Assembly: GCF_020171785.1 (NCBI RefSeq)
Contig: NZ_JAIVAE010000002.1
Coordinates: 558,001 to 622,000, forward strand
Origin: Guptibacillus hwajinpoensis
Lineage (GTDB): Bacteria; Bacillota; Bacilli; Bacillales; Guptibacillaceae
DNA: 64,000 nt
Direction: 5' to 3'
The stretch's first letter is position 1, and each line of letters begins with the position of its first letter. Below, piece by piece: positions 3,177 through 50,035 of the stretch. The notes under the pieces were generated by a model. That model was not told the DNA's origin, did not search any database, and saw only the letters and a program-made list of their open reading frames with translations. Both the position numbers and the translations under genes were made by a program.

Positions 3177-4070
3177 ATGACAATGAAAAAGTTAGTAGTA
3201 GCAACTGGACTCTCGTTTACGCTTTTAGCCGGATGTCAGGCTGGAGATGAAGAGCAAACGTCTAACGAGCCGCAGAATCAAGTGGAGAACGGTGGACAAT
3301 CGAATAACGATTCCACCAATGATTCTGGAAAATCCGAAGAAAATCAAACGAAAGATCATCAAGAAAACGATAGCCAGAATGACAATGAAGAGAGCAATAA
3401 AGAGCAGGATCAAAAAGATGACGATAAAGAGGGTGCTGCAGCTTATCCAACGATGGCTGAAACAGTCGAGAAAAATGGTGATAATTTAACGGTCACGAAT
3501 CCAGACAGCATTTATGTCGTGGCTAATAAAGAACGTAATCTGCCTTCTGACTTTGTTCCAAAAAATCTTGTGGAACCAGACGTGTCTACATATGCCCCTG
3601 AAGGTGATCCGAAGCGTTTGATGGTAGAAGAAGCTGCCAGAGCGCTTGAAAAAATGTTTAAAGGGGCAAAAGAAGATGGCTATGAGTTAAAAGCTGTTTC
3701 AGGTTATCGCTCCTATGAGCGCCAGGAAGCTATTTTTGCTTATAATGCTGAGCAACGTGGAGAAGAAGTAGCGAACCAGGTAAGTGCGCAGGCGGGACAG
3801 AGTGAACATCAGACGGGCTTAACAATGGATATTAGCACACCTTCCCTTGGAAGCTCTCTTACTGAAGAGTTTGGTAACACACCAGAAGGGAAGTGGGTAG
3901 CGGAGCATGCGCATGAATATGGATTCGTTGTTCGTTACTTAAAAGGGAAAGAGGATATTACCGGATATCAATATGAGCCATGGCACGTTCGCTATGTCGG
4001 GAAAGAAGCGGCTGCTGATGTTCACGAGGCTGGCGTTACGCTTGAAGAATTTTTCACTGAAGAAAAATAG
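3177..4070 (+). CDS. VanY-family D-Ala-D-Ala carboxypeptidase lipoprotein
   Basis: 297 aa. A lipoprotein signal peptide ends in the lipobox LLAGC (Cys at about 20), followed by a long acidic Asn/Asp/Glu/Gln-rich linker (about 21-90). The C-terminal half is a VanY (peptidase M15B) domain: SGYRSYERQ (about 178), zinc-ligand segment SEHQTGLTMDI (about 210) and EPWHVRYVG (about 266). It should trim the terminal D-Ala of peptidoglycan stem peptides at the outer membrane face. The two possible ATGs are 6 nt apart; the first has better ribosome-site spacing (AGGAAG). The acidic linker suits a salt- or alkali-adapted surface protein. Confidence 0.9.
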   Translation: MTMKKLVVATGLSFTLLAGCQAGDEEQTSNEPQNQVENGGQSNNDSTNDSGKSEENQTKDHQENDSQNDNEESNKEQDQKDDDKEGAAAYPTMAETVEKNGDNLTVTNPDSIYVVANKERNLPSDFVPKNLVEPDVSTYAPEGDPKRLMVEEAARALEKMFKGAKEDGYELKAVSGYRSYERQEAIFAYNAEQRGEEVANQVSAQAGQSEHQTGLTMDISTPSLGSSLTEEFGNTPEGKWVAEHAHEYGFVVRYLKGKEDITGYQYEPWHVRYVGKEAAADVHEAGVTLEEFFTEEK

Positions 4071-4906: not shown

Positions 4907-5362
4907 TTGAAAGGAACAAATGACCTTATACTTAAAACGACGACAACTATTATCGTCTTTATTATTCTAGGATTTTCGATTTACTTATTTTTCGCAGGTC
5001 ATAATGCACCGGGCGGGGGCTTTATTGGAGGTCTTATGACTGCTGGAGCATTGGTTCTTCTGTATATCTCATATGGGTTTAAAACCATGAAGAGAGTAAT
5101 ACGGATTGACTTTAAAAACTTTATTCCGATCGGTTTATTGATCGCTGTTCTTACGGGAGTAGGTTCGTTCATTTTTGGTCAACCCTTCCTAAGTCAAACA
5201 GATGCTTATTTTGAGTTACCGATTCTCGGACATTCTCACCTTGCGACCGCAATGTTATTTGATCTTGGCGTTTATTTCACTGTTGTTGGGGTAACAATGA
5301 CGATTATTTTAAGTATTGCAGCTGATGAAGGTGAAGAGGAGCTTTCCAAATTAAATGGGTAG
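4907..5362 (+). CDS. Stand-alone MnhB/MrpB-like antiporter subunit
   Basis: 151 aa, TTG start after GAAAGGATG. It matches MrpB (MnhB) of the Mrp Na+/H+ antiporter: NDLILKTTTTIIVFIILGFS helix, the hallmark AGHNAPGGGFIGGL loop (about residues 30-43), and later helices ending in a short acidic tail. Four membrane segments are expected. MrpB normally functions in a six- or seven-gene mrp operon, but here it sits alone between ccdA and ccdC with no mrpA or mrpC-G nearby. It may be a second subunit copy assembling with a complex encoded elsewhere, or it may have a separate role. Confidence 0.82.
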   Translation: MKGTNDLILKTTTTIIVFIILGFSIYLFFAGHNAPGGGFIGGLMTAGALVLLYISYGFKTMKRVIRIDFKNFIPIGLLIAVLTGVGSFIFGQPFLSQTDAYFELPILGHSHLATAMLFDLGVYFTVVGVTMTIILSIAADEGEEELSKLNG

Positions 5363-7382: not shown

Positions 7383-7479
7383 TGGCGGGACTGTGTGGGA
7401 ATCGAACCCACCGAAGACGGCACGCGCCTCCCAAGCGGTTTTGAAGACCGTGGCACTCACCAGACGTACAACCAGCCCC
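7383..7479 (-). tRNA. selC: Selenocysteine tRNA (anticodon UCA)
   Basis: 97 nt including the encoded CCA. The anticodon loop CTTCAAA sits in a CGGT/ACCG stem, with UCA at 7444-7442. The T arm is GTGGG-TTCGATT-CCCAC, the D region holds GGTGAG, and a long variable arm is built from GGGAGGC and GCCGTCTTC with one bulge. The acceptor is GGGGCTG / CAGTCCC with discriminator G; the eighth pair expected in bacterial tRNA-Sec is G-A here. selB, selA and selD nearby support the identity. It decodes UGA as Sec when bound by SelB. Confidence 0.93.
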
Positions 7480-7973: not shown

Positions 7974-9854
7974 ATGAACTATTATACGATTGGTCTAGCG
8001 GGGCACATTGACCATGGAAAAACGACATTAACAGGCGCATTAACAGGCGTTGACACAGATCGGTTGAAAGAAGAGAAGGAACGCAACATTTCCATTGAAC
8101 CAGGATTCGCTCCGTTTCAACTATCTGATGATATGAAAGTGTCAATCATTGATGTTCCGGGTCATGAACGATTTATCCGCCAAATGATTGCTGGGGTTGC
8201 TGGGATTGATCTAGTTGTTCCGGTTGTCGCGGCTGATGAAGGAGTGATGCCACAAACGCGAGAACATCTTGAGATTTTATCGCTTCTAGGTATACAGAGG
8301 TCGATTATTGCAATCACAAAAGCGGATATGGTGGAGGAAGACCTGCTTTCTCTCGTGCAGGAAGATATTCTTGAATACATAAAAGGAACCGGGTTTGAGG
8401 GATCAAAGATTCATATCGTTGATGGCAAAAGTGGAAGAGGCGTTGCTGAGCTTAAGGAAAGCCTTCACTCTTTTCTTATCAACACACCTTCAAGAAATAA
8501 AGCTGGAGCACTGAGATTACCAATTGATCAAGTGTTTACTTTACAAGGCCACGGCACGATTGCACGAGGAACGATTTTTGATGGAGAGCTAAAAGAAGGA
8601 GAACTTGTTACACTTCTTCCTGATCGCTTAGAAGCGCGAGTAAGACAAATACAAACGCACAGTACAAAAGTGGAGCAAGCTTTTGCGGGCGAACGAGTTG
8701 CGGTAAACCTGACAGGGCCAGATCGACATCAGATGGTTCGGGGACAAGTCATTGTTAATTCCAATTACTATCCTGTTACGTCGACCATTGATCTTTCATT
8801 TACGAAAGCTCTTACGATGTCTCATGACTTGAAACAGCGAGCTGAAGTAACGATACACATTGGAACGGCGGAGGTAAGAGGAACGATCGTCTTTTTCGAT
8901 CGCAATACGCTTGAGGCTGGGAATCGAGAAGAACTCTTCTGCCAGATTCGACTTCATGAACCTATTACCGCTAAAAAAGGGGATCGCGTTATCGTAAGAC
9001 GTCCTTCACCGGTTGAAACAGTTGGTGGCGGCAGTATTCTTAATGTGGCAGGAGAGAAATATAAATTTGGCGCTGAAACAATCGCGAAATTTGAACAAAT
9101 GTTGAAAGGGACACCAGCTGAACAGCTTGAGCAAATTCTTGAAGTGGAGCAAATGTTATCAAAAGAACAAGTGATGCAGCAAATTGGGTTAAATGAGGAA
9201 GCGTTCCGCCAGCTTGAGGATAACGATCACCTTGTCTTTATTGACGGTGGTGTGACTTCACAAAATGTTTTTACACGAGTGGTTGAAGCGATTCATAAAA
9301 ATTTGCAAGCGGCACATGAACGATATCCTATGCGAAAAGGTCCACAGAAAGCGGAAGTGGTGCAGGAGTTAAAGAAAACTTATCCTAAAAAAGTAATAGA
9401 TGCCGTCTTGAGCAATCAGCTTCAGGAAGAACTTCAGCAAAAAGGGCCTTATCTTTCCATGCGCACTTTCCACCCATCGCTGCCGCCCGCATGGAAAACG
9501 CGTATGACAAATGTGTTAAAGCAATTAGAGGAGCAAGGAGTTAACGTCTCGCCAGTCGATCGTTTAATTGATGAGGAGCAAATTCCAGATCCATATAAGA
9601 CGGAGTTTAAGAACTATATGTTGGAAGAAGAGATTGCGCTTAAATTAACAGACGAGCTTTATGTGCATGTTGAAAATTGGAAGCAAACCATTGCATCTTT
9701 AAAAGCGGAAACCGGGCAATCCTTTACGTTACAGGAGGCGAAAGATGTTCTTAATGTAAGTCGAAAGTATCTAGTGCCGATCCTAGAGAAGCTTGATAAC
9801 GAAGGATATACCGTAAGAAAAGATCAGGAGAGAGTTTGGAGAGTAGAGAAATAG
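7974..9854 (+). CDS. selB: SelB, selenocysteine-specific elongation factor
   Basis: 626 aa. The N-terminal GTPase has G1 GHIDHGKTTL (about 10-19), G2 region EKERNISIEPGFA, G3 DVPGHE (about 60-65) and the SelB-type G4 TKAD (about 113). EF-Tu-like beta-barrel domains follow, then a C-terminal array of winged helices (about 370-626) for binding the mRNA SECIS hairpin. SelB delivers Sec-tRNA-Sec to UGA codons. It starts after GGTGATAGGCAGGTG and is 24 nt upstream of an ABC-transporter lipoprotein gene, suggesting one operon. Confidence 0.96.
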   Translation: MNYYTIGLAGHIDHGKTTLTGALTGVDTDRLKEEKERNISIEPGFAPFQLSDDMKVSIIDVPGHERFIRQMIAGVAGIDLVVPVVAADEGVMPQTREHLEILSLLGIQRSIIAITKADMVEEDLLSLVQEDILEYIKGTGFEGSKIHIVDGKSGRGVAELKESLHSFLINTPSRNKAGALRLPIDQVFTLQGHGTIARGTIFDGELKEGELVTLLPDRLEARVRQIQTHSTKVEQAFAGERVAVNLTGPDRHQMVRGQVIVNSNYYPVTSTIDLSFTKALTMSHDLKQRAEVTIHIGTAEVRGTIVFFDRNTLEAGNREELFCQIRLHEPITAKKGDRVIVRRPSPVETVGGGSILNVAGEKYKFGAETIAKFEQMLKGTPAEQLEQILEVEQMLSKEQVMQQIGLNEEAFRQLEDNDHLVFIDGGVTSQNVFTRVVEAIHKNLQAAHERYPMRKGPQKAEVVQELKKTYPKKVIDAVLSNQLQEELQQKGPYLSMRTFHPSLPPAWKTRMTNVLKQLEEQGVNVSPVDRLIDEEQIPDPYKTEFKNYMLEEEIALKLTDELYVHVENWKQTIASLKAETGQSFTLQEAKDVLNVSRKYLVPILEKLDNEGYTVRKDQERVWRVEK

Positions 9855-9878: not shown

Positions 9879-10781
9879 ATGAAAAAAGCAATTCTTTTTA
9901 TAATGGTGCTTATGCTCGGTATTCTTGCGGCATGTAGCTCGAATGAGAACGAAAATACTTCAAAAGATACTAGTGAAAAAGAAGAAGGGGCCTTTACGAT
10001 TGGTGTCATCCCAGTTCAAACGGAAGGTGAAATTGAAGAAGCAATGACGAAGCTTCAAGGTGAGCTTTCAGAAAAACTTGATCGTGATGTTGAAATTACA
10101 ACGTTTCCTGACTATAACGGTGTTGTGGAAGCGATGAACTATGATCAAATTGATATGGCTTATTTTGGTCCGCTTACGTATGTCATTGCGCACGAGAAAA
10201 GTGGCGCAAAAGCTATTGTGACTCAGTTGATTGACGGTGAGCCTTTCTACCATTCTTACATCATTACGAATACAGAAAATGAGTGGGAGACGCTTGAAGA
10301 ATACCTTGAAAATAGTGAGGAAAGAAGCTTTGCATTTGGCGATCCTAATTCAACATCAGGTTCATTAATTCCTTCAATAGAGCTCCAAGATCGCGATGTC
10401 TTTGAAGATCAGGATACAAATGATTTTGCTTCTGTTGCCTATACTGGCTCGCACGATGCAACAGCTTTATCTGTTCAAAATAAACAGGTTGATGCAGGCG
10501 CAATTGATAGCGCGATTTATAATCAGTTGCTCGAATCGGGAAAAATTGATGGAGACAAACTTAAAGTGATCTGGGAATCTGAAAAGCTTTTCCAATACCC
10601 ATGGGCTGTTTCTAAAGGAACGGATGAAGAGACGATCGATCAGCTTCAGAATGCATTTCTAGCTATTGAAGATGAAACGATTTTAAATGCATTTGGGGCA
10701 TCAGGATTTACGAAAGCAAGTAATGAAGATTATGAGAGCATAAGAAGCGCTGCTGATAAGCAAGGGCTGTTAACGAAGTAG
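9879..10781 (+). CDS. PhnD-family ABC transporter substrate-binding lipoprotein, possibly for a selenium oxyanion
   Basis: 300 aa. The lipobox ILAACS places Cys at about residue 19. The mature part is a PhnD-like type 2 periplasmic-binding fold: FTIGVIPVQ at about 39-47, DMAYFGPLTYV at about 93-103, and GDPNSTSGSLIPS at about 154-166. Family members bind phosphonate, phosphite or other oxyanions, and one PhnD subfamily is annotated as putative selenate binding because of selenium gene neighbours. Lying in an apparent operon directly behind selB, this is probably a selenium-compound transporter, but the ligand cannot be read from sequence. Confidence 0.85.
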   Translation: MKKAILFIMVLMLGILAACSSNENENTSKDTSEKEEGAFTIGVIPVQTEGEIEEAMTKLQGELSEKLDRDVEITTFPDYNGVVEAMNYDQIDMAYFGPLTYVIAHEKSGAKAIVTQLIDGEPFYHSYIITNTENEWETLEEYLENSEERSFAFGDPNSTSGSLIPSIELQDRDVFEDQDTNDFASVAYTGSHDATALSVQNKQVDAGAIDSAIYNQLLESGKIDGDKLKVIWESEKLFQYPWAVSKGTDEETIDQLQNAFLAIEDETILNAFGASGFTKASNEDYESIRSAADKQGLLTK

Positions 10782-10782
10782 A

Positions 10783-11535
10783 ATGGCCTGGTTTAAATGG
10801 AGGCACCTTATTCTGTTTTTTTCGGTAGTTGGATTAATGGTATGGAGCATAGGTGTTACGGAGTTTGATGTAAGGAAGTTTAGTCAATTTAACAATATGA
10901 TCGATTTCCTGTCGAATTGGTTTCCGTTAAATATATCGGTGCTTCCAACCATGTTAAAAGCAAGTCTTGTTACACTAGGGATGGCATTTCTTGGGAGCTT
11001 TGTGGGTTTACTCCTTGCGTTACCCATTAGCTTACTTGCTGCTAAAAATACGGCAGGCCCATTTTATGGGTCTGCGCGTGTTGGTTTAAGTTTCGTTCGG
11101 TCGATTCCAGAAATCGTATTAGGGTTAATGTTTCTTACGATTGTTGGACCTGGACCATTTGCGGCAACGATTGCGATTATTGTCCACAATGCGAGTGTTC
11201 TCTCTAAATTAATTGCAGAATTAATTGAAGCGGCTGATAAAGGCCCTCAGGAGGCCATGAAGGCAGTTGGAGCAAGACCGCTAACAGGTGCGTTATTTTC
11301 AGTCTTTCCTCAAATTTGGCCGAACGTTCTGTCGCATTATTTTTATCGATTTGAAGTGGCGATTCGAACTTCGTTAATGCTCGGTTTGGTTGGCGGGGGA
11401 GGAATTGGACAGCAGCTGTTTGTTCATTTCAAAACATTCCAATACTCGACCGTTGCGGTTGATGTGATGCTAATTATGATCATTGTCATTGTCGTTGATT
11501 TTCTCGGAAGTAGGGTGAGGCAATATGTCATGTAA
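10783..11535 (+). CDS. PhnE-family ABC transporter permease
   Basis: 250 aa, beginning 1 nt after the preceding stop. It has about five or six membrane segments, with the binding-protein-dependent permease loop EAADKGPQEAMKAVGARPLTG at about residues 145-165. This pairs the PhnD-like lipoprotein with the downstream ATPase. The ribosome site is weak, suggesting translational coupling. The transporter substrate is inferred only from the selenium context. Confidence 0.87.
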   Translation: MAWFKWRHLILFFSVVGLMVWSIGVTEFDVRKFSQFNNMIDFLSNWFPLNISVLPTMLKASLVTLGMAFLGSFVGLLLALPISLLAAKNTAGPFYGSARVGLSFVRSIPEIVLGLMFLTIVGPGPFAATIAIIVHNASVLSKLIAELIEAADKGPQEAMKAVGARPLTGALFSVFPQIWPNVLSHYFYRFEVAIRTSLMLGLVGGGGIGQQLFVHFKTFQYSTVAVDVMLIMIIVIVVDFLGSRVRQYVM

Positions 11536-12280
11536 CGAAGCGTTGTTAACGGTTGAGAATGCATCCGTGCGCTATCAAAATGCTGAATCTTATGCGTTAG
11601 ATCATGTTTCTCTCACTTTTCAAAGAGGCGAATTTGTTTGTATATTAGGAAAAACGGGCGCAGGTAAGTCAACGTTCATTCGGACGTTAAATGGCCTGCA
11701 ATCTTTAACGGAAGGCGAGATTGTTTATAATAGTCGTTCTTTCCAAACCCTTGATCGAGAAGGGTTAAGAAGACAAAGGCGAAGTATGGGGATGATTTTT
11801 CAGCATCATCAGTTGATTCCTCGTTTAACAGTTTTGCAAAACGTCTACACGGGTTTATTCGGTTCTCGATCAACCATTCGCAATCTGGCTGGTTTATTTA
11901 ATGAAAGTGAAAAAAAACTTGCGAGAGACGTTATCGAACAAGTTGAACTATTGCCTCATTTAAATAAGCGGGTCGATTTATTGAGTGGAGGGCAAAGGCA
12001 ACGTGTTGGTATTGCCCGGGCACTTGCTCAATCGCCTGATATTTTTCTTGGAGATGAACCTGTCGCAAGTCTTGATCCAGGTACAGCTAATCGCATTTTT
12101 CAACTCATTCACCGTTTGCATGAGGAGCGGAACTTATTAACGATTATTAACGTTCATGATGTCAAACTAGCGAAAAGATATGCGTCTAGAATTGTGGCAT
12201 TAAAAGAAGGTCGCGTTGTATTTGATGACCGACCAGAAGCGCTTACTGAGGAGATAGAAGATATGCTATATGAACTATAA
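11525..12280 (+). CDS. PhnC-family ABC transporter ATP-binding protein
   Basis: 251 aa, overlapping the permease gene by 11 bp. Walker A GKTGAGKST (about 42-50), Q-loop IFQHHQL, signature LSGGQRQRVGIARAL (about 155-169), Walker B DIFLGDEPVASLDP and H-loop NVHDV are all present. It powers the PhnD/PhnE-like importer encoded upstream. The operon selB-phnD-like-phnE-like-phnC-like ends at a strong terminator. Confidence 0.9.
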   Translation: MSCNEALLTVENASVRYQNAESYALDHVSLTFQRGEFVCILGKTGAGKSTFIRTLNGLQSLTEGEIVYNSRSFQTLDREGLRRQRRSMGMIFQHHQLIPRLTVLQNVYTGLFGSRSTIRNLAGLFNESEKKLARDVIEQVELLPHLNKRVDLLSGGQRQRVGIARALAQSPDIFLGDEPVASLDPGTANRIFQLIHRLHEERNLLTIINVHDVKLAKRYASRIVALKEGRVVFDDRPEALTEEIEDMLYEL

Positions 12281-12317
12281 AAAAGGAAGTTGGGGAATCC
12301 CCAACTTCCTTTTTTTA
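12281..12317. terminator. Bidirectional terminator between the transporter operon and selD
   Basis: AAAGGAAGTTGGGG / CCCCAACTTCCTTT stem with a short loop and T7, located between convergent genes. Confidence 0.92.
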
Positions 12318-13364
12318 TTTGCTTGCGGTGATCGCAAATGCATCTTTGTCATTCACGTGACCGACAATGTAAGCTGATTTCCCTTTAGCATTCATCCGTG
12401 ATACATATTCATTCGCTTCATGCTCAGGCATGCTAATTAATAGGCCACCAGAAGTTACCGCATCACATAAAATGAATTGCTCAAGTTCTGTGAGGTTTTC
12501 GTATCTGACAGAATCAGCAATCCAGCGGTGATTTGCTTTTGATCCACCAGGGATATAACCTTGCTCCGCTAGCTCAACGGTGCCAGGTAAGATAGGCACG
12601 TTGTTATAGTCGATTTGAATGCTAACGTTGCTTCCGGTTGCCATTTCAAAAGCATGACCGAGTAAACCGAAGCCGGTGACATCTGTTACAGCATGAGGTG
12701 ATAGACCTGATAGTTCTTCAGCTGCGGTTTTATTTAACTCAGCCATCGTTTCTGATACGCGCTGAAGCTGTTCAGTGGTTAACTTTTCAGGTTTAATGGC
12801 AGTTGTTTGTATGCCAACGCCAATAGGTTTTGTTAACACGATCGCGTCTCCCGACTTAGCGCCAACGTTCATCAGAATTTTATCTGGATGAACGAGACCT
12901 GTCACTGATAAACCAAACTTTGGCTCCTGATCATCAATAGAGTGTCCGCCAGCAGTAACAGCCCCTGCTTCATCAACTTTATCAGCAGCGCCTTTCAAAA
13001 TTTCTGCAAGAATGGAAGGGTTCAAAGATTTGATCGGAAAACCGACTATGTTAAGAACGGTTTTCGGAACTCCACCCATTGCATAGACATCGCTTAATGA
13101 ATTGGCCGCTGCAATTTGACCAAACATATATGGATCATCAACGATAGGTGTAAAGAAGTCTACCGTTTGAATCATGGCGAGTTCATCAGTTAGGCGGTAC
13201 ACGCCTGCATCATCGGAGGTTTCCACACCGACAAGTAAATTTGGATCTTTTTTCTTATTAGGTAATTGACGCAAAACTTGCGTCAGGTCCTCAGGACCGA
13301 TTTTGCATCCTCAACCACCTTTTGTCGATAGGGATGTTAAACGGATGTTTTCTTCATTTGACAT
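12315..13364 (-). CDS. selD: SelD, selenophosphate synthetase, with in-frame UGA (selenocysteine 18)
   Basis: 349 residues when the TGA at 13313-13311 is read as Sec. Translation from ATG 13364 (GGAGGTGGTCAT upstream) gives 17 residues ending STKGG, then U18, then GCKIGPEDL. This aligns with the active-site GxCGCK loop of SelD, where position 17/18 is Cys or Sec and the following Lys is catalytic. Later motifs are VGVETSDDAGVYRL and FGLLGHAFEM. SelD makes selenophosphate from selenide and ATP for Sec-tRNA synthesis. Reading only from a start after the TGA would delete the catalytic loop. A SECIS-like hairpin follows the TGA. Confidence 0.95.
13267..13285 (-). promoter_or_regulatory. Bacterial SECIS-like hairpin in selD mRNA
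   Basis: On the coding strand an 8-bp perfect stem (TGACGCAA / TTGCGTCA) closes a GTT loop; the loop begins 33 nt after the UGA. A smaller GGTCC-TGA-GGACC hairpin (13286-13298) lies between. The distance and the G at the first loop position agree with published descriptions of bacterial SECIS elements. Confidence 0.75.
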
Positions 13365-13459
13365 ATGACCACCTCCTAACATGAGTATAAATCTTTTCTT
13401 CGTATTTTTGAAATGATATAGTATGTACAACTTGAAATTCATTAGAGGAGGTAGCTTAT

Positions 13460-13705
13460 ATGAAGTATCATGTAACGATCGAATTCTGCATGCAGTGAAA
13501 CTATGCTCCAAAAGCCGCGAGTTTCGCGGAAGCACTATTTAACCATTTCAGACAGGAAATTAGTTCGCTAGAAATGATACCTGGTTCTGGTGGTGTGTTT
13601 GAAGTGAAGGTAAATGATCTGCAGATGCATTCAAAAAAAGATTCAGGTCAATACCCGGAAGTGGAATCATTTATTAAGAAAATGGAAAGCAGAACGTTCG
13701 AGTAA
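13460..13705 (+). CDS. SelW-like (Rdx family) selenoprotein with CxxU redox motif
   Basis: 81 residues when TGA 13496-13498 is read as Sec13. ATG 13460 follows GAGGAGG. The protein begins KYHVTIEFCMQUNYAPKAA, the thioredoxin-like beta-strand plus CxxU loop of the SelW/SelT/SelH (Rdx) family. Its second half has GSGGVFEVKVND (about 46-57), then HSKKDSGQYPEVESF, both family hallmarks. Rdx proteins are small thiol/selenol oxidoreductases. It is divergent from selD and upstream of selA. A conventional caller stops at the UGA and misses it; the frame stays open for 68 codons after it. Confidence 0.93.
13515..13529 (+). promoter_or_regulatory. SECIS-like hairpin in the SelW-like mRNA
   Basis: CCGCGA-GTT-TCGCGG: a perfect 6-bp GC-rich stem with a GTT loop starting 22 nt after the UGA. 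The same apical loop occurs in the selD hairpin. Confidence 0.8.
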
Positions 13706-13728
13706 GGCACCCCGTTCAGGGTGTCTTT
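13706..13728 (+). terminator. Weak terminator after the SelW-like gene
   Basis: GGCACCC / GGGTGTC stem (one G-U pair) and an interrupted T tract, 25 bp before selA, so readthrough into selA is plausible. Confidence 0.55.
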
Positions 13729-13752: not shown

Positions 13753-15144
13753 TTGAAATTACTTAGAGAACTACCCCCGATTCATCAAATTCAAGAAACG
13801 ATGGTGAAAGATAACATAGGGAACGACCTCCCTCAGAAGCTTCTCAAACAAATGGTCCAACAGGAAGTGGACGATCTTCGTGCCTCTTTACTAAATGAAA
13901 CGTATAGCGGGGATGCTCAAGATCGCCATGGTTTTCAGGTTGAAATTATAGCAAGCGTGCAAGAAAAATTAACGCGAAATACTTTTAATTTAGTGCCGGT
14001 TATTAATGCAACCGGTGTCGTTCTACATACGAATCTTGGGAGAGCGAGATTAAGCGATGCTGCAATAGATCATATGATTGAAGTAGCCAAAAGTTACTCC
14101 ACCCTCGAATATAACCTCGCAGAAGGAAGGCGAGGCTCTCGACACACCATTGTTGAAGAAGCGGTTTGCAAGGCAACAGGGGCAGAAGCAGCGATGATCG
14201 TTAATAACAATGCTGCAGCTGTTTTCATGATTTTGAGTGGCCTTGCTAAAGAAAAGGAAGTGGTTGTATCACGAGGCGAACTCGTTGAAATTGGCGGATC
14301 ATTTCGGGTTTCTTCAATAATGGAAGAGAGCGGGGCGCGCTTGAAGGAAGTAGGCACCACGAATAAAACGCATCCTGCTGACTACGAACAAGCTGTGAAT
14401 GATGAAACAGCGATGATAATGAAAGTGCATCGTAGTAATTTTGCGATTGTTGGTTTTACGGCAGAAGTAGAGCGTGAGCAATTAGCATCCATTGCAAATG
14501 AGCAACAGATTATTTTTTATGAGGATTTAGGCAGTGGCGCATTATATGATTATCGTAAAGATGGTATTGGAGAAGAGCCAACTGTTCAGGAAACGCTTGC
14601 CGCTGGTGCAGACTTAGTATCCTTTAGTGGTGATAAGCTCCTTGGTGGCCCGCAGGCAGGTATTATTGCTGGTAAGAAAGAACTTGTGGATCGGTTGAAG
14701 AAACATCAACTAGCACGTGTATTACGCGTAGATAAGTTTACCCTTGCTGCTCTTGAGGCAACCTTACTCGAGCATTTGTATGAAGAAGCAAACAATATCC
14801 CTGCGATTAGAGATATTACGGTATCGCCAGAAGAAGTGCGAAAGCGTGCAATTCATTTCAAAGAAAGACTTGAAACGAAGTGTTCGCATTATCAAATTGA
14901 TGTGGAAGCGGGTGTTTCCCAAGTTGGTGGCGGGACCATGCCTGCGGTTGAATTGCCAACATCTGTTGTTGCCATTCGAACAGGCCGTTTCAGTGTGAAT
15001 GATCTCGAAGAAAAGCTTCGAAGGCGTCATCGCCCAATCATTACCCGTATTAAGGATGAAAAAATCCTCATTGACCTTAGAACTGTAACGACAGAAGAGG
15101 AAGAAGTGCTTTTAAGTGAATTGATGAACATAAGCAACGAATAA
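13753..15144 (+). CDS. selA: SelA, L-seryl-tRNA(Sec) selenium transferase
   Basis: 463 aa, TTG start with GGAG at a spacing of 8. This PLP enzyme converts seryl-tRNA-Sec to selenocysteyl-tRNA-Sec using selenophosphate. Visible landmarks: N-terminal LLRELPPIHQI, the glycine-rich LHTNLGRARLS (about 97-107), EYNLAEGRRGSRH (about 121-133), and the PLP-lysine motif SFSGDKLLGGPQAG (about 293-306). The C-terminal segment has RTGRFSVNDLEEKLR. Full family length. It follows the SelW-like gene and ends at a terminator shared with sspP. Confidence 0.96.
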   Translation: MKLLRELPPIHQIQETMVKDNIGNDLPQKLLKQMVQQEVDDLRASLLNETYSGDAQDRHGFQVEIIASVQEKLTRNTFNLVPVINATGVVLHTNLGRARLSDAAIDHMIEVAKSYSTLEYNLAEGRRGSRHTIVEEAVCKATGAEAAMIVNNNAAAVFMILSGLAKEKEVVVSRGELVEIGGSFRVSSIMEESGARLKEVGTTNKTHPADYEQAVNDETAMIMKVHRSNFAIVGFTAEVEREQLASIANEQQIIFYEDLGSGALYDYRKDGIGEEPTVQETLAAGADLVSFSGDKLLGGPQAGIIAGKKELVDRLKKHQLARVLRVDKFTLAALEATLLEHLYEEANNIPAIRDITVSPEEVRKRAIHFKERLETKCSHYQIDVEAGVSQVGGGTMPAVELPTSVVAIRTGRFSVNDLEEKLRRRHRPIITRIKDEKILIDLRTVTTEEEEVLLSELMNISNE

Positions 15145-49506: not shown

Positions 49507-49540
49507 AAAAAAAGGAACTGATGTAGGCATCAGTTCCTTT
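49507..49540 (-). terminator. Terminator of the csp gene
   Basis: AAAGGAACTGATG / CATCAGTTCCTTT stem with T7 read leftward. Confidence 0.87.
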
Positions 49541-49551
49541 GAGGTTTATAA

Positions 49552-49752
49552 TTAAAGTTTGTTAACGTTAGCAGCTTGAGGTCCGCGGTTTCCTTCAACG
49601 ATTTCGAAAGAAACTTCTTGGCCTTCTTCTAGTGTTTTGAAACCTTCGTCATTGATTGCTGAGAAGTGTACGAATACATCGTCAGCTCCTTCGATTTCGA
49701 TGAAACCGAATCCTTTTTCTGCATTAAACCATTTTACTTTACCGTTTTGCAT
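49552..49752 (-). CDS. Cold-shock protein, CspA family
   Basis: 66 aa from ATG 49752, with TAGGAGGAAC upstream; a longer in-frame reading runs into the 5' leader and is not real. RNP1 KGFGFIEI and RNP2 VFVHFSAI are present, and the C-terminus ends [11 protein letters not shown]. It binds single-stranded RNA/DNA as a chaperone. About 280 bp upstream contain a leader and promoter region typical for csp genes; no clear ydaO- or T-box-type element was seen. Confidence 0.95.
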
Positions 49753-50035
49753 GTTTGTTCCTCCTAAAAGCTTAGCACAATCCTTGTGCACTTTAAATTT
49801 CAACCATTCATCGGATGTTGAAGAAGAGATATTCGATGTGTACGAGAAGTGCACAAAAAATCGAATTCAAATTCTCAATCAAATATCCTATGTGATAAAT
49901 GGTTAATTTAACTATAACGTCTCACTATAAAAATGTCAACACCACCTAGAGAATAGCACATAATCCTTAACGTAGAGAATAAAGTTGGGTAAGATGGAAA
50001 ATGGAGTGATGTAATTTAATTTATGGAGGGGTTTT

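Follow-up and report, generated by a model that had tools for sequence, protein, structure and literature searches.

Introduction

Bacterial SelW-like selenoproteins with a CxxU motif are listed in excerpts of PMC2398784, PMC9312934 and a 2026 review (PMC13188914), and a table in an excerpt of PMC5029168 gives 35 and 35 for the entry 'Selenoprotein W like'. In the accessible sections of PMC1794560, SelW-like proteins stand among the bacterial selenoproteins, three selenoproteins are counted for the Bacillales, and Sec-using organisms are described as having very few or no Cys homologues of the SelW-like proteins. The portions of two further reports at hand concern epsilonproteobacteria, in which SelW genes were wholly missed in annotation and SECIS structures were found around their UGA (PMC4607533), and Campylobacter jejuni, for which translation of SelW past the UGA has been confirmed by proteomics (PMC11955535). 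Given that SelW-like selenoproteins are already published to this extent and that C. jejuni SelW is confirmed past its UGA, the selW gene analyzed here belongs to a known family.

The window, which is the whole stretch of DNA analyzed, comprises 64,000 nt of Guptibacillus hwajinpoensis. A preliminary description of its sequence had proposed an unannotated SelW-like selenoprotein gene hidden by an in-frame UGA. Here we compare this locus with its relatives in the same family, order and phylum and with the systems described above.

Results

The selW frame and its genomic neighborhood

The proposed frame was an ATG followed by a TGA at codon 13 inside a CxxU motif and by 68 further codons, with a strong ribosome site upstream, and direct reading of the window agreed with it base for base. 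selW begins at ATG 13460-13462 and reaches a TAA at 13703-13705 after 68 sense codons past the TGA (13496-13498), and the AGGAGG ahead of the start is the ribosome site that had been claimed (Table 1). The read-through product reads MKYHVTIEFCMQ-U-NYAPKAASF..., in which the motif is C10-M-Q-U13. The frame is far beyond chance, both by its match to the Rdx family (3.2e-20) and by the TGA found at this site in 96/96 copies. It was also correct that standard gene calling passes over the gene: the standard-code ORF list (at least 80 aa) has no entry in the selW frame. selW readily escapes notice, since it contains a codon that is usually read as a stop and here most likely specifies selenocysteine. 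The term "unannotated" held for the one annotated relative inspected, Cytobacillus spongiae NZ_CP089998, whose gene table, from a collection stated to be incomplete, has no gene at the selW homologue, unlike the nearby selD and selA, which are both annotated.

Table 1. Coordinates of selW, its sequence elements and the Sec machinery genes in the window.
Feature	Position	Strand	Evidence or remark
selC, tRNA-Sec, anticodon tca	7383..7479	-	
selB, Sec-specific elongation factor	7974..9854	+	TIGR00475 3.4e-107
selD, selenide water dikinase, in-frame UGA at codon 18	12315..13364	-	TIGR00476 2.1e-125; U18
selD bSECIS-like hairpin UGACGCA-AGUUU-UGCGUCA, loop as in selW	13267..13285	-	GU loop in distinct selD sequences
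selD UGA, predicted Sec codon	13311..13313	-	TGA in 83/83 selD genes located in the fetched loci
Ribosome-binding site AGGAGG, 8 nt 5' of the selW ATG	13446..13451	+	Direct reading of the sequence
selW, 81-aa SelW-like (Rdx) selenoprotein (predicted), CMQU motif	13460..13705	+	ATG to TAA
In-frame UGA, codon 13, predicted selenocysteine	13496..13498	+	TGA in 96/96 copies and 127/127 Rdx genomes of the order sample
Putative bSECIS apical hairpin CCGCG-AGUUU-CGCGG	13515..13529	+	Compensatory synonymous pairs; synonymous-site constraint
Hairpin that overlaps the selW stop and extends past it toward selA	13704..13727	+	-13.8 kcal/mol, z -4.38
selA, L-seryl-tRNA(Sec) selenium transferase, listed with a TTG start	13753..15144	+	TIGR00474 2e-169

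Besides selW, the window contains the four Sec machinery genes selC, selB, selD (on the minus strand) and selA, all of them thus in the same genome as selW, and a phosphonate-type ABC transporter. The transporter, which is PhnD/E/C-like and occupies 9879-12280 inside the Sec gene cluster, keeps this position within the genus and also in certain other loci, among them L022, L038 and L052. Its binding protein scored 185.7 against TIGR04553 (putative selenate transport), below the cut-off of 250, and selenium uptake is a possible function. Elsewhere in the window, an Rfam cspA thermoregulator match of 85.9 bits lies at 49509-49904 on the minus strand.

Family assignment and predicted fold of SelW

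A profile search of the Sec-translated product, the check put forward in the preliminary description, placed it in the Pfam Rdx family (PF10262) with 72.6 bits against a cut-off of 22.6 and with profile positions 1-72 of 74 covered; TIGR02174 (CXXU_selWTH) was likewise over its cut-off, at 3.8e-18. At E <= 0.001 the genome had no Rdx match other than selW, which contains one TGA. The best match by sequence among solved structures was 3dex (1.1e-11). In an alignment of 28 sequences, positions 10 and 13 were invariant, the motif was placed after the first strand, and the part of the protein past the UGA was conserved among relatives. The predicted model, which drew on 28 aligned sequences, had a mean pLDDT of 87.6, with a strand at 3-10 that ends at Cys10 and a helix at 16-29, the first one, preceded by a turn holding Sec13. 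The first 21 PDB matches of the model were SelW-family chains (TM by query 0.78-0.90, E 1.5e-8 to 9.7e-7), which points to a predicted thioredoxin-like SelW fold. From the placement of Cys10 and Sec13 in this predicted fold, together with family knowledge, SelW is most likely a small thiol/selenol oxidoreductase.

Conservation of the UGA and association with selA

The UGA was present in every genome of the organism's own family that was searched by profile: each of 15/15 genomes had one Rdx match, and each match had one TGA. We drew an even sample of 299 genomes from the order, and 127 of these matched Rdx, each listed match containing exactly one TGA (127/127). selA scored over the cut-off in 139 of the 299, and these 139 included all 127 Rdx genomes and 12 genomes without Rdx. 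There was no Rdx match in the 160 order genomes counted as lacking selA over the cut-off, 65 of which still show weaker matches to the selA model. At the level of individual loci, the site codon was TGA in 96/96 copies from 95 fetched loci, representing 88 distinct sequences (87 over a different span), since the loci overlap and at least 8 of L003-L015 are identical to one of L016-L026. The window's own locus (L001) aside, the best matches in these loci were 52-94% identical to the protein encoded here. The relatives search kept the best 80 of 199 and hence leans toward close ones; the family, order and phylum profile searches are free of that bias. None of the close relatives had lost Cys/Sec at the site, which the preliminary description had named as evidence that would count against it, and every copy examined among them carried the UGA.

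Of 398 genomes drawn from the phylum, 31 matched Rdx. One TGA was found in 28 of the 31 matches, three of these 28 coming from the organism's own order, and the loci examined beside the window's own had TGA at the CxxU site in 27/27. As for the other three matches, L107 has Cys at the site, L121 had no assignment, and the third did not cover the site. Several loci had features of their own. Sediminibacillus massiliensis (L040) carries a pair of selW genes separated by about 1.3 kb (3663-3863 and 5001-5237), both with UGA. In other parts of the phylum, the TGA-containing Rdx matches of L115, L119, L120 and L122-L125 lie inside longer open frames of 271-680 aa, which are possibly fusions or merely long open frames. 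A record titled Pseudomonas sp. ISL-84 (L065) contains a Bacillaceae-type selW-selA-acnA region and is possibly a mislabelled or contaminated assembly.

selA was downstream of selW in 95/95 of the overlapping loci. The gap between them was about 150 nt or less in 53/95 and about 150 nt or more in 42/95, exceeding 400 nt in 38, and in one annotated relative it holds an Hsp20 gene on the opposite strand. In the order sample, the match starts of selA and selW were at most 3.5 kb apart in 121/127 genomes; in the remaining 6 the two genes were 4.8, 5.8 or 90 kb apart or on different contigs. Together, these data show that in this order SelW accompanies the Sec machinery: it was never in Cys form and never without selA in the sample, and was nearly always near selA. 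The always-Sec pattern extends to this order the remark on scarce Cys homologues in the accessible text of PMC1794560. We found no description of a selW-selA tie in Bacillales in a partial survey of the literature confined to sources outside subscription journals. A reading in which SelW serves the Sec pathway, by handling or reducing selenium for SelD/SelA or by signaling selenium status, rather than being just a redox protein, seems unlikely to us, and the 12 of 139 selA genomes that have no SelW count against it.

A covarying hairpin downstream of the UGA

A downstream hairpin had been claimed in support of translation, and this part of the preliminary description stood in so far as hairpins are present; which one was meant had been left unspecified, and there are two. 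One, at 13515-13529, begins 16 nt past the UGA within the coding sequence and is supported by covariation, and the other, at 13704-13727, overlaps the stop and was not listed by the terminator scan. Past the UGA, codon choice is restricted among the 88 distinct selW sequences: codon +8, a Ser for which six codons are possible, was AGT in 88/88, and the Ala codons +6, +7 and +10 each used two of four codons. This synonymous constraint is attributable to the first hairpin. Pair 6.3-10.3 was CG in 65 and TA in 22 of 87 distinct sequences with no mixed pairs, and pair 7.3-9.3 was GC in 69, AT in 17 and GT in 1; changes at both pairs fall at third codon positions and are silent. Pair 7.2-10.1 was broken in one of the 87, and the loop was AGUUU in 85/87. 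By eye, no such hairpin was seen at that place in L107, the only Cys form observed.

At neither of the two varying pairs was the observed pairing attained in any of 10000 shuffles, in which relatedness was ignored. Minimum changes on a selA tree of 81 rows, a quick tree with long-branch warnings, were at least 8 at pair 6.3-10.3 and at least 3 at 7.3-9.3. Counting independent pairs on well-supported branches gave 4 for one base pair (all concordant, 0 discordant) and 1 for the other, which is below significance alone. In the 28-sequence alignment, 99.3% of hairpin cells were paired vs 90.6% in shuffles, there were 19 double-change cells vs 6.6 in shuffles, and sliding the hairpin partner by 1-3 columns brought pairing down to 20.7-60.0%. 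Two of the five covariation measures were not above shuffles, namely the number of double-change pairs (reached by 448/500) and pair types (reached by 500/500).

When stretches of 51-66 nt surrounding the UGA were folded by minimum energy, the structures were of unexceptional stability (z -0.66 to -1.26) and favored another stem that includes the UGA. This rival stem was 99.0% paired in relatives with zero double changes; it may thus represent a second conformation or result from codon conservation. Taken by itself, the 25-nt hairpin folded as proposed (z -1.87, 9/200 shuffles equally stable), and a 48-nt stretch starting at the UGA also folded into it whereas the 51-66 nt stretches did not, so that the result of energy folding varies with where the stretch begins and ends. 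The competing stems were told apart by covariation but not by energy folding. The hairpin at 13515-13529 looks like a bacterial SECIS element.

Other predicted selenoprotein genes in the genome

selD appears to share this arrangement. With standard decoding, selD appears in the ORF list only from a TTG at 13274. The loop that follows its UGA by 35 nt has GU in 66/66 distinct sequences, the four base pairs beneath it are all standard in 66/66, and the pair closing the GU loop was A-U in 52, G-C in 10 and non-standard in 4 of them. Among the 14 PF00578 matches of the genome, two peroxiredoxin-family frames have an in-frame TGA, each followed by a GU-loop hairpin. These selenoprotein candidates are a peroxiredoxin whose UGA lies in FTFV-U-P (L141, G000:C2:900-2300) and a SelL-related redox protein whose UGA lies in HLG-U-PVC (L142, G000:C10:72900-74100); their nearest models, PrxU and SelL-related, both scored under the NCBIfam cut-offs. 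A single SelB with one preferred loop probably acts on selW, selD and both peroxiredoxin-family genes.

The genome's predicted selenoprotein gene set thus numbers at least four (selW, selD and the two peroxiredoxin-family frames). A selenouridine synthase match was over its cut-off, and the four formate dehydrogenase alpha matches in the genome had no in-frame stop. Across the order sample, 234 of 299 genomes matched the formate dehydrogenase alpha model, 178 over the cut-off, with TGA in rows G300, G167 and G075 among the matches listed. The Sec-coded selD, the two peroxiredoxin-family TGA frames and the selenouridine synthase match argue against a Sec machinery that is there for SelW alone, and we rejected this reading.

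Discussion

We put a probability of about 0.96 on the reading that 13460-13705 is a functional selW encoding an 81-residue Rdx selenoprotein, with Sec inserted at residue 13 via SelB and the hairpin. The SelW-like selenoprotein of the preliminary description is thus borne out by the Rdx match, the Sec machinery, the conservation of the UGA and the covarying hairpin, with Sec itself predicted. In the mechanism we propose, Sec would be made by SelA on the selC product using selenophosphate from SelD, SelB carrying Sec-tRNA(Sec) would bind the hairpin just 3' of the selW UGA, and selenocysteine would be inserted at residue 13 in place of termination. From these data we infer that the cell inserts Sec, that SelB binds the hairpin and that SelW is redox-active.

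The codon admits other explanations. TGA is one base from a Cys codon, and Cys occupies the site in the three solved homologues with alignments shown, as would be expected if a TGC or TGT of a SelW-like gene had mutated, or been misread, to give a pseudogene or sequencing error. This was rejected: the UGA is conserved across independent assemblies (15/15 family genomes, 127/127 Rdx genomes of the order sample, 96/96 copies), and moreover the downstream protein is conserved and the hairpin covaries, leaving the explanation a negligible chance. Equally little credit goes to reading of the UGA as Trp or Cys by a near-cognate or reassigned tRNA, independently of the Sec machinery. Readthrough alone would yield the same frame, but selA, selB, selC and selD all lie beside selW, Rdx is confined to selA genomes in the order sample, and homologues carry Cys at this redox site.

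Somewhat more can be said for a UGA that is mainly a regulated stop, with selW as a selenium-sensing leader in which selA expression is set either by what happens at the UGA or by SelB sitting on the hairpin. In E. coli, selAB is controlled by SelB through a SECIS-like element, a precedent to which the constant downstream position of selA, its usual proximity in the order sample and the stable hairpin between selW and selA in this window could be added. A leader of this kind would nevertheless have to act over gaps of about 150 nt or more in 42/95 loci, past an opposite-strand Hsp20 gene in one relative, and at 4.8-90 kb or from another contig in 6/127 order genomes, and would have no need of the conserved protein past the UGA. 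The variable gap and the Hsp20 insertion make a leader or attenuator role very improbable as the main function.

Together, the selenoprotein reading is well supported: selW is a genuine gene, though an unexceptional one, whose small product is predicted to contain selenium. It supplies a gene that standard calling skips, and the selW genes of this order are recognizable by the combination of Rdx, UGA and covarying hairpin. To our knowledge, what bacterial SelW does in the cell is an open question. It could conveniently be studied in Bacillus relatives whose selW sits next to selA and selD, and the strict association of selW with selA can itself be put to the test.

Comparison with known systems

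Mouse SelW (2npb) and MIEN1/C17orf37 (2ljk) belong to the same family as the selW product, with weaker structural matches (TM by query 0.70 and 0.67), and are distant in sequence (phmmer 0.0047 and 0.0052). The solved Rdx proteins 3dex, 2fa8, 2obk, 2p0g, 2oka and 2ojl share its family and its fold, which is predicted here; the solved Rdx structural matches are 25-37% identical to it, and 3dex, 2oka and 2p0g, for which alignments were shown, carry Cys where selW has the Sec codon. Like C. jejuni SelW, as given in the accessible parts of PMC11955535, the product has 80-81 aa and one in-frame UGA and was first missed by annotation. Translation past the UGA is backed there by Ribo-seq and proteomics, whereas Sec is predicted here. 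The two also differ in phylum, and the selW product scores 72.1 against NF041051 (SelTWH_Campy equivalog), under the cut-off of 88, and is therefore not filed under that equivalog. With the published bacterial SelW-like selenoproteins (PF10262 Rdx), as far as the available excerpts describe them, selW shares the family, Sec in CxxU and the in-frame UGA, and there is no essential difference; particular to the present locus are its place between selD and selA and the presence of Sec in every sampled order genome that has SelW.
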